DNA from: Pseudomonadota bacterium
Lineage (GTDB): Bacteria; Verrucomicrobiota; Verrucomicrobiia; Limisphaerales; SXTU01
Assembly: GCA_009922615.1 (NCBI GenBank)
Contig: RFVF01000011.1
Span: 1-64,000, forward strand
DNA length: 64,000 bases
Direction of reading: 5' to 3'
Positions 17,962-21,065 of the stretch are shown here, piece after piece. A program made the position numbers and the translations under genes. Every line of letters starts with the position of its first letter. The stretch's first letter is position 1. The notes beneath the pieces are model-generated. The model was not told the origin of the DNA. It made no database searches and saw only the letters and a program-made list of their open reading frames with translations.

Positions 17962-18948
17962 ATGACGCTCCACCCTGCCAGCCTCGCTGACCTCTCCCGC
18001 CTGCTCGCCGACTGCCACGCCGCGCAGCGCCCGGTCACCTCGGTTGACCTCGCCGCCCTCGCCGCCGTGCGCGAATACACGCCGGAGGACATGACCATCA
18101 CCGCCGAAGGTGGGCTGACGCTGGCCGCGCTCCAAACCACCCTCGCCGCGCGGGGCCAGTGGCTTCCGATAGACCCGCCCCACGCTGACCGCGTGACTCT
18201 CCGCCAGCTTTTGTCCGAAAACCTCTTCGGCCCCCGGCGCTGCGGCTTCGGGACCATTCGCGAGCACCTCATCGGACTGGAAGCGGTGCTTCCCGATGGC
18301 CGTGTCACCCACTCCGGAGGACGCGTCGTGAAGAACGTCGCCGGCTATGACTTGCTCAAACTCTTCGTCGGGGCGCGCGACAGCCTGGGCATCATCACCG
18401 CCGCGACCTTCAAGCTCCGCCCGCTGCCCGCTGCGGAAATCATCCTGAGCGCGACCTTCCCGAGCCTCGCTGCTGCATGGACCGCCGTCGAAGCCATCCT
18501 CGCCTCCCCCGTTACCCCCGTCATCCTCGACCTGCACAACCTCGCCGCAGACGCCTCCGCCTCCGCCACCTTCACCGTCCGCCTCGGCTTTGCCGGCACC
18601 CCTGCGGAAGTCGAATGGCAGCGCGCCCATGCCTCTGGTTTCTCCCTCTCCCTTTATCAGCTGAGGGGAGCGGGCCGGGGTGAAGGGTTGTCTCCCCATG
18701 CGCCCGATCCCGAGCAAGCCTTCTGGTCCTCCGCCCTTCCCGTTCACACCCACTCCGTCCTTCCCAGCAAACTCCCGGCAGCCATCGCGGCACTGGGCCC
18801 AGCCCCTTTCCTCGCCCGCGCCGCCAACGGCATCATCCACCATCGCTCAACCGCCTTGCCCAGCCCGACCAAAGGCCTCGATGCCTTGAGCCGACGCCTC
18901 AAAGACACCTTCGACCCTCACCATATCCTTCCGGCCCTGCCGGCTTGA
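17962..18948 (+). CDS. glcE: FAD-binding oxidoreductase, glycolate oxidase subunit GlcE-like
   Basis: 328 residues. The first 180 show the FAD_binding_4 pattern: DMTITAEGGLTLAALQTTL, then FGTIREHLIGLEAVLPDGR and the segment GGRVVKNVAGYDLLKLFVG, which is characteristic of GlcE. GlcE works with GlcD and GlcF to oxidise glycolate to glyoxylate at the membrane. glcF lies downstream but glcD is not in the window. The gene starts 12 bp after the kinase stop, so it may be read through from the kinase operon. Confidence 0.88.
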   Translation: MTLHPASLADLSRLLADCHAAQRPVTSVDLAALAAVREYTPEDMTITAEGGLTLAALQTTLAARGQWLPIDPPHADRVTLRQLLSENLFGPRRCGFGTIREHLIGLEAVLPDGRVTHSGGRVVKNVAGYDLLKLFVGARDSLGIITAATFKLRPLPAAEIILSATFPSLAAAWTAVEAILASPVTPVILDLHNLAADASASATFTVRLGFAGTPAEVEWQRAHASGFSLSLYQLRGAGRGEGLSPHAPDPEQAFWSSALPVHTHSVLPSKLPAAIAALGPAPFLARAANGIIHHRSTALPSPTKGLDALSRRLKDTFDPHHILPALPA

Positions 18949-18960
18949 ACCCTGCGGCCG

Positions 18961-19815
18961 ATGCCCCACCCCACTTCCAGCCGCGCGCCAGTCGTCTCCC
19001 AGGCACAGCCATCCATTGGCTACTTCACGGACGGGCCGCCGAAGGTTCAGCGAGCCTCTGGTGAAGTGGCGGATGCTTCCCCGAGCGCTCGGCAGCCCTC
19101 CGGTGAAGTAACCGGAGCATCCCGGAACCCTCCGCAAGCCTCCGGCTACTTAACCGGAGCCTTGCCGAACATCCGGCAAGCCAACTCCCAGCTAGGGATT
19201 GTGCCACGGAGTGTCAAGGACTGTGCCAGTCAGCAAGGAGTTGAGCCACGGAGTGTCAGGCGGTGTGCCAGTTACTTAGGAGTTGTGCCACGGAGTGTCA
19301 GGCGGTGTGCCAGCCATCTAGGATGCGAACTACCTGACACACTTTGGCACAACTCCCAAGTGGAAGTTGCCTTCCCGGACGTTCGGCAGCCCATTTCCCG
19401 ATCGGGGATTGCATTCCCGAACATCCGGCGGTCCATTCCCCGATCGGAGATTGCGTTCCCGAATGTCCGGCGGCCCATTCCCCGATCGGAGATTGCGTTC
19501 CTGAACGTCCGGCGGTCCATTCCCCGATCGGAGATTGCGTTCCCGAACGTCCGGCGGCCCATTTCCCGATCGGAGATTGCGTTCCTGAACGTCCGGCGGT
19601 CCATTCCCCGATCGGAGATTGCGTTCCCGAACATCCGGCGGTGCATTTCCCGATCGGGGATTGCAGCGCTGCGGATTTTTATACACTTCCGGCACCTCGG
19701 CACTGCTCTCGGGGAGTCGAAGCAGATCGGGCGTAACGGTCCCGACGCGCTGCCCAACCTCCCGGACACCCACCCGGCGCACTGGAGACGGATGCGCCGA
19801 TCCCATTACCAGTGA
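18961..19815 (+). CDS. Doubtful open frame through the 42-bp repeat array
   Basis: A 284-residue frame runs from ATG 12 nt after the glcE stop to a TGA that overlaps the glcF GTG (GTGA). Its middle is about fifteen copies of a 14-residue repeat, late copies reading like PRSEIAFPNVRRPI. The tight junctions look operon-like. Against it being a real protein, the repeat length is a multiple of three and long frames are open on both strands, so an open frame is expected by chance. No recognisable domain, signal or membrane segment is seen. It may only help to couple translation into glcF. Confidence 0.25.
   Translation: MPHPTSSRAPVVSQAQPSIGYFTDGPPKVQRASGEVADASPSARQPSGEVTGASRNPPQASGYLTGALPNIRQANSQLGIVPRSVKDCASQQGVEPRSVRRCASYLGVVPRSVRRCASHLGCELPDTLWHNSQVEVAFPDVRQPISRSGIAFPNIRRSIPRSEIAFPNVRRPIPRSEIAFLNVRRSIPRSEIAFPNVRRPISRSEIAFLNVRRSIPRSEIAFPNIRRCISRSGIAALRIFIHFRHLGTALGESKQIGRNGPDALPNLPDTHPAHWRRMRRSHYQ
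19018..19668. repeat. Array of 21-bp half-units in 42-bp register, quasi-palindromic
   Basis: From 19018, bases can be cut into 21-mers with no slippage through 19668, giving fifteen full 42-bp units and a final half. Three blocks share the register. Units 1-4 (19018-19185) have CTCCGG...CCGGAG dyads, CCGAGCGCTCGG (a perfect 12-bp palindrome at 19081-19092) and TTGCCG...CGGCAA. Units 5-8 (19186-19353) repeat TTGTGCCA and AGTGTCA, and the last is in inverted orientation. Units 9-16 alternate a CCCGATCGGGG-type palindrome with a CCGAACGTCCGG-type palindrome. 21 bp equals two helical turns, so all dyads face the same side of DNA. There are no unique spacers. Confidence 0.92.
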
Positions 19816-21065
19816 GCTCGAACGGCACCCCCCTCCCGCGCTTCCTCGACGAGGCCAAGTCCCTTGCCTGCATCCATTGCGGGCTCTGTCTGGGGTCGTG
19901 CCCCACTTACTTGGAGACCGGCAATGAGAACGACTCGCCGCGCGGACGTATCTATCTCATGCGCGCGGTGCAGGAGGGGCGTCTCCCCCTGGGCGATGCC
20001 ACCGTCCGACACATCGACCTTTGCCTCGGCTGTCGCGCTTGCGAGGCGGCGTGTCCCAGCGGCGTGCACTACGGTGAGTTGCTCGAAGCCACGCGCGATC
20101 ACATCGAGCACCGACATCACCGTTCGGTGTTTCAGAACTTCCTGCGGCGCATCCTCATCGAGCGCGTCTTCCCGCATCCCAGCCGGATGAAACTGGCCCT
20201 TTGGCCCGCGCGTCTGCTGAAGCGGGCGGAGGCCGGCCACCTCTTCCCCAAGTTCATCCAAGATTCCCTCGCCCTCCTCCCCGCTGAGATGAGCGAGGGG
20301 AACTTGCCGGAAGTCTCCCCTGCCCTCGCCAAGCGGCGCGGGCGGGTCGGCTTCGTGCGCGGCTGCGTCATGAACGTCATGTTCGGAAGCACGAACGAGA
20401 ATTCCATCCGCCTCCTGAACCGCGCGGGCTATGATGTGGTCACTCCCCGGGATCAAGGTTGTTGCGGCGCACTTCACGCCCACGGTGGCAACCTCGCCGC
20501 CGCCCGCGAAGCGGCCCGCGTAAACCTCGCCGCCTTCGGACACGAGCCGCTGGATGCCATCGTCATCAATGCCGCCGGCTGCGGCTCGACGTTGAAGGAA
20601 TACAACCACCTGCTCCCCGGCGACCCGAAGGCCGCGGAGTTCAGCGCGAAGGTAAAGGACTTGAGCGAGTTCCTCGTGAGCGCTGGTTTTCACAATACCG
20701 CGTTCACTGCTCGGCCACCGGCCATCAAAGTGACCTTCCACGATGCTTGCCACCTCGCCCACGCCCAACGCATCACCCACGCCCCCCGCATCCTCGTGAA
20801 AGCCGTGGCGGGCGCGAACTTCGTCGAACTGCCGGAGTCCGATGTCTGCTGTGGCAGCGCCGGCAGCTACAATCTGACCGAACCCGCGATGGCCGAACGC
20901 CTGCAAACCCGCAAGATCGCCAACATCCTCAAGACCGGCGCCAACTGCATCGTCTCGACCAACCCCGGCTGCCTCCTCCAGATGCGCGCCGGCCTTGACC
21001 GTGCCGGAGCCACGCACATCGAGACCCTGCACCTCGCCGATTACCTTGTCCGCGCCCTCGCGTAA
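19812..21065 (+). CDS. glcF: Fe-S subunit of glycolate oxidase, GlcF-like
   Basis: 417 residues from GTG. Two 4Fe-4S motifs appear at CIHCGLCLGSCP (residues 20-31) and CLGCRACEAACP (about 74-86). Two CCG-domain segments follow: QGCCGALHAHGG and DVCCGSAGSYN, each with the paired cysteines expected for a heterodisulfide-type or quinone-linked cofactor. It passes electrons from the FAD subunits to the membrane quinone pool. The start overlaps the stop of the repeat-array frame. GTG is accepted because the Fe-S region begins 19 residues later, as in the family. Confidence 0.9.
   Translation: MSSNGTPLPRFLDEAKSLACIHCGLCLGSCPTYLETGNENDSPRGRIYLMRAVQEGRLPLGDATVRHIDLCLGCRACEAACPSGVHYGELLEATRDHIEHRHHRSVFQNFLRRILIERVFPHPSRMKLALWPARLLKRAEAGHLFPKFIQDSLALLPAEMSEGNLPEVSPALAKRRGRVGFVRGCVMNVMFGSTNENSIRLLNRAGYDVVTPRDQGCCGALHAHGGNLAAAREAARVNLAAFGHEPLDAIVINAAGCGSTLKEYNHLLPGDPKAAEFSAKVKDLSEFLVSAGFHNTAFTARPPAIKVTFHDACHLAHAQRITHAPRILVKAVAGANFVELPESDVCCGSAGSYNLTEPAMAERLQTRKIANILKTGANCIVSTNPGCLLQMRAGLDRAGATHIETLHLADYLVRALA

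Follow-up and report, generated by a model that had tools for sequence, protein, structure and literature searches.

What keeps thirty-one short modules in step when their sequences belong to different families? The question is raised by an array between a glcE-like and a glcF-like gene in the window, by which we mean the whole 64,000-nt stretch of contig RFVF01000011.1 that was analyzed (from a lake bacterium of the Limisphaerales; genome G000 in what follows). A preliminary description of this DNA had noticed the array and had argued for selection on its spacing, with RNA structure among the mechanisms considered.

The array and the open frame between glcE and glcF

Table 1. Features of the glc locus in window coordinates.
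Feature	Position	Strand	Basis or remark
glcE-like FAD-binding protein	17962..18948	+	PF01565
Open frame, 284 aa, array in frame, without Pfam match	18961..19815	+	ATG 12 bp past glcE stop, TGA overlaps glcF GTG
31-module quasi-palindromic array, 21-bp modules, one dyad register	19014..19664	.	Laid end to end; dyad-phase score
Block 1: 8 modules, CTCCGG...CCGGAG / CCGNNNNNNCGG types	19014..19181	.	TRF, dyad phase
Block 2: 9 modules based on GTGCCACGGAGTGTCA, weak self-dyads, strong inverted repeat	19182..19370	.	TRF, dyad phase
Inverted copy of 19279-19301, mirror axis 19317.5 = module centre	19334..19356	-	Direct reading
Block 3: 14 modules, CCGAACGTCCGG / CCCCGATCGGGG types alternating, 7 x 42 bp	19371..19664	.	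TRF, dyad phase
3' end motif CTGCGG(C/A)TTTTT...CAC, conserved	19665..19686	+	Common to 5/5 first-family arrays in genus
glcF-like Fe-S protein	19812..21065	+	Fer4_8, CCG

When laid out at 21 bp, the array consists of 31 abutting modules without indels, just as had been described, except that the best dyad phase places the first module at 19014, 4 bp to the left of the earlier start at 19018. Dyad centres keep one shared phase across all three sequence families of the array, with a mean of 4.94 of 9 positions paired compared to 3.50 (maximum 4.41) in 300 column-permuted versions, controls in which the repetition is retained. The recurrence of dyads claimed for the array holds overall but not for the middle block (approximately 19182-19349, GTGCCACGGAGTGTC units), the units of which are not self-palindromic and have weak self-dyads. 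What stands out in this block is a long inverted repeat: 19334-19356 mirrors 19279-19301 about a module centre, with 20 of 23 bases matching by direct reading.

TRF returned 42-bp repeats at 19053-19182 (4% indels), 19188-19323 (0%) and 19367-19664 (0%). Because the autocorrelation of the array sequence is high at 42, 84 and 126 bp (0.69, 0.61 and 0.55) and low at 21 bp (0.23), the 21-bp register applies to dyad centres and not to sequence identity. Across the arrays examined, modules two apart differ by approximately 33% with few indels, the rarity of indels being judged by eye from the layouts, without a null. In a search of the array's own genome with the end motif CTGCGGCTTTTT, only the two known arrays were recognised among near-matches, and searches of the array frames against Pfam and NCBIfam gave nothing above cut-off.

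The location between glcE and glcF had been given correctly, but the open frame that joins both genes and contains the array had been missed. G000 and its congeners G010 and G002 have an array at the orthologous glcE-glcF site, with the sequence turned over between the three; TGTGCCACGGAGTGTCA-like units of block 2 are also present in the glc arrays of G010 and G002. In the four congeners whose junctions were read (G003, G005, G006 and G007), glcE abuts glcF with a stop-start overlap. The same overlap apparently occurs in G004, where the contig ends just upstream, while the spacer of G009 contains no array and the contig of G008 begins within the spacer. Array content differs at the same site between relatives. 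Where full spacers were read (G000, G002, G010 and G009), an open frame begins 12-16 bp past the stop codon of glcE and closes with a TGA that overlaps the start of glcF. Since the glc array is open in this linker frame, the 21-bp unit would be harmless there.

A second palindromic repeat, CTCTCCCTTTATCAGCTGAGGGGAGCGGGCCGGGGTGAAGGG, is found in frame within glcE (window 18640-18690). By reading, similar copies occur in the glcE genes of G002, G010, G009 and G007, and different repeats in that of G005.

Arrays of the genome, the order and the phylum

Two further arrays of G000 have the same register: C130, to which an array in G010 is orthologous, and C310, with TTGCCT...AGGCAA modules that are unrelated in sequence. 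A 326-aa protein encoded downstream of the C130 array (L002 834-1814, G000:C130) is 80% identical in G010 and has no Pfam or NCBIfam match. A BLAST search of 58 relatives with the glc array retrieved congeners only, plus one short match taken as chance. The matches of a protein search with the translated array across the order were mostly weak, yet they led to 42-bp arrays in G015 and G027, which belong to other families. The six 42-bp arrays of G015 (L102 and L122-L126), some of them at or near contig edges, have similar flanks and apparently form part of a dispersed longer element.

With a covariance model of four hairpins spaced 21 nt (R1), 18 of the 320 genomes searched within the order gave matches, with array counts per genome being lower bounds (14 candidates per genome were scored). 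Four matched loci (L152 and L157-L159) were later judged false by eye, since neither a scan nor a layout of their sequence revealed a tandem array. The arrays printed from R1 matches differ widely in sequence and retain the register. A second model (R2), run over 388 genomes of the phylum, added the class-level relatives G588 (two loci) and G554 (approximately 41 bp, irregular); one of its matches was a coding repeat. The 21-bp register is present in at least six other Limisphaerales families and one class-level relative, and one array family was found in two species (L271 and L403). With arrays in its own genome, in congeners and in other families, the glc array is not a one-off. The preliminary description would have been refuted by a lack of other such arrays in this or related genomes, or by random indels among copies, and neither was observed. 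Arrays with a 41-bp period also occur, and their dyad spacing of 20.5 bp is near two turns of B-DNA and is not a multiple of 3. By reading, A/T tracts such as GGTTTTTGACC or GCCAAAAATGACC, approximately 10-11 bp apart, flank many arrays on one side (for example L148, L149, L165 and L180).

Sample-based densities were obtained from a model-free scan for any tandem period of 15 to 130 bp in 413 kb of G236 and 620 kb of G000. The G236 sample yielded 29 tandem segments, among them 21 with a period of 21n, one of 41 and one of 66; the last is an instance of the 22-bp-like periods that also occur and that speak against the reading favoured below. With four adjacent 102-bp segments taken as one coding repeat, and with 18-bp and 28-bp segments set aside, approximately 24 distinct loci remain, 21 of which are 21n arrays, or roughly one per 20 kb. 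By reading, these arrays are mostly unrelated in sequence to one another, two loci excepted. Only a few of the 23 tandem segments in the G000 sample have a 21n period; for most of the rest the period is 72-120 bp, and these were assumed to be coding repeats. Elsewhere, other f42 genomes gave no array in 267 kb and Verrucomicrobiota glcF neighbourhoods gave 7 in 644 kb, and the single array in 196 kb of other phyla was read as coding. Comparable samples from the control phyla had mixed periods.

Dyads, codons and RNA folding

The boundaries and phases of 39 arrays were set by the author before counting. Dyads exceeded those of column-permuted controls at p<=0.01 in 32 of 38 arrays, most of which had been found by models or scans that favour the 21-bp dyad geometry. 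Covariation of the arms within arrays amounted to 280 observed against 206 expected (pooled z=7.1), and covariation across arrays exceeded shuffled and slid controls on most measures. A histogram of dyad distances on the raw sequence contained too few strong dyads to be informative. What the arrays have in common is geometry, with dyad centres 20.5-21 bp apart and complementary arms, and not sequence.

These results bear on the simplest account, in which the arrays are ordinary minisatellites without function that arose by tandem duplication of a chance 21- or 42-bp unit. Like minisatellites and VNTRs, the arrays have tandem units in variable copy number; copy number and unit sequence vary freely among relatives, many of which have no array at the same site. 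Unlike them, arrays of unrelated sequence agree in unit length and dyad register and have arms that covary, there are very few indels at approximately 33% divergence, and the control phyla have mixed periods. We consider this account improbable. The earlier argument for selection on spacing over plain slippage is strengthened by the same few indels and by how common unrelated arrays with a 20.5-21-bp register are in relatives.

Since 21 bp is seven codons, the array could also have been kept in frame as a protein of heptapeptide repeats. One frame is open through all five first-family arrays of the genus, and the glc frame reaches from shortly past the glcE stop to the glcF start even in the array-free G009, as it does in G000, G002 and G010. 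The alaS genes of G233 and G248 also contain in-frame arrays. Nevertheless, every one of the six frames is interrupted by stops in five of 38 arrays, and 41-bp periods exist, so coding is not the general cause of the spacing. Codon-position composition is flat, and the copies of block 3 have no third-position pattern of change (by eye, not computed). Codons do not account for the signal of the arrays; the keeping of frame appears to be a constraint of particular sites and not the general cause, and the coding account is very improbable. The alaS arrays of G233 (L155 1512-1658) and G248 (L305 at approximately 1834-2064) are 21-bp arrays of different sequence at the same position, encoding the heptapeptides PSPNVGT and GSADKPI.

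An RNA element is a further alternative, in which the transcribed array would be a string of hairpins protecting, terminating or separating mRNA segments. Shuffled versions of the 677-nt array fold far less well than the array itself on either strand (z of -9.0 and -10.9), and the arms covary within and across arrays, as such an element would have it. However, folding of the antisense strand is no worse than that of the sense strand, and sense-strand mismatches in 14 arrays show no preference for G.U over A.C (176 versus 162). A constant step of 21 nt is not needed by RNA hairpins, and an Rfam search of the window gave no match. The arrays of G236 and G248 lie between co-directional, convergent and, once, divergent genes, with one array inside a gene (alaS); flanks were judged by ORF strand only, apart from glcE and glcF in the window. 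As all three contexts occur, the arrays are not a fixed 5' or 3' UTR signal. RNA structure, which the preliminary description had entertained, is not favoured by the G.U/A.C comparison, and we regard it as quite improbable. Simple bending would be expected to go with helically phased WW dinucleotides, which were significant in only 7 of 39 arrays.

Possible hairpin amplification, known repeat systems and a proposed structural role

The main rival is an origin similar to that of REP and BIME elements, in which the modules would be small hairpins that Y1 (HuH, RAYT-type) transposases acting on single-stranded DNA, or template switching during replication, copy and amplify. The register would then reflect the hairpin unit, and the arrays would be largely selfish or neutral. 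Palindromy without sequence conservation suggests recognition of a foldback, and the presence of one array family in two species fits as well. Near Y1_Tnp genes, 20.5/21-bp arrays occurred at 5 of 20 loci in 63 kb and at approximately 6-7 of 20 in 98 kb, compared to 16 in approximately 1.88 Mb of other Verrucomicrobiota samples, an apparent enrichment that is uncorrected for array-rich genomes and uncontrolled for array density per genome; Y1 genes and arrays also both sit in tolerant regions. Published CGTC-type REPs have stems of 8-9 bp and loops of 4-5 nt, so that stem plus loop is close to one module in size (PMC3733652). On the other hand, G000 gave no PF01797 match despite its arrays, whereas Y1 genes are present in G003 and G005. 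REP tags argue against this origin too, with GTAG depleted in the arrays (21 versus 83 expected) and CGTC not enriched; of 39 arrays, none had GTAG and one had CGTC at a fixed phase in half or more of its modules. The spacing of REPs in the literature is variable. On balance we judge such an origin unlikely, although it is the strongest competitor.

Comparison with known repeats yielded partial likenesses. BIME-2 and REP clusters are similarly mostly intergenic tandem palindromic arrays with alternating unit types and occasional in-frame copies. REP families, however, have a sequence common within the genome and GTAG or CGTC tags, whereas the arrays here are mostly unrelated within a genome, tagless and fixed in spacing at 20.5-21 bp. 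One sequence family at many loci of a genome, as in REPs, was not found in G236; the six G015 loci and two G236 loci are exceptions. Plasmid iterons and centromere repeat arrays are tandem binding units of approximately 20 bp on one helix face. The arrays here are alike in unit size and tandem arrangement but differ in that there are many per chromosome, with no shared sequence, and in that the window's array, flanked by glcE and glcF, has no replicon or partition context. Rickettsia palindromic elements are likewise tolerated in frame within genes, as here in alaS and the glc linker frame, but they are single insertions of a defined family, whereas these are mostly intergenic arrays. CRISPR was rejected since the modules abut, with no unique spacers between repeats. 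Our search of the literature found no description of such arrays.

The reading that we favour, with a probability of roughly 0.4, is that the glc array is one of a class of arrays, widespread in Limisphaerales and for the most part intergenic, that consist of approximately 21-bp foldback modules and the register and arm complementarity of which would be kept by selection for a structural role at the DNA level. It is favoured because the geometry is kept while the sequence is not. Copies would be gained and lost as whole units, and the arms may act as dyads in duplex DNA, as cruciforms or as hairpins of single-stranded DNA. Modules stacked at two helical turns would all face one side of the helix. 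The most likely candidate role would be to dock an architectural DNA-binding protein, dimeric or structure-reading, or to absorb supercoiling locally, at tolerant intergenic sites. The element is dispensable, given that many relatives have no detectable arrays. We would like to note that a sequence-blind protein would not by itself require matching arms, so the palindromy of arbitrary sequence could instead come from a mutational mechanism such as template switching at hairpins.

More tentatively, Limisphaerales may keep a chromosome feature defined by geometry only, consisting of foldback modules of any sequence at two helical turns. Repair or inversion templated by the arms would maintain these modules, and they would be recognised by their structure and not their sequence. 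Such a feature could reach approximately 180 sites per genome, as extrapolated from one relative; we hold this broader proposal to be possible but doubtful. If spacing and symmetry are conserved without sequence, the arrays would provide a direct way of testing, in bacteria, either DNA proteins that read structure or sequence evolution templated by foldbacks. Such arrays lend themselves to computational survey, and their phasing can readily be disrupted in a reporter.

Separately, alaS-like frames with an in-frame Y1_Tnp/RAYT-like domain (FAACVMPDHVH...) were observed at L155 469-3078 (G233:C4), L382 (G006:C172), L410 (G012) and L411 (G015). Both domains were assigned by Pfam in L155, and by reading or motif matching in L382, L410 and L411. 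In L382, the Y1_Tnp-like domain is flanked by repeats encoding GSARVPRAVSGV.PET.
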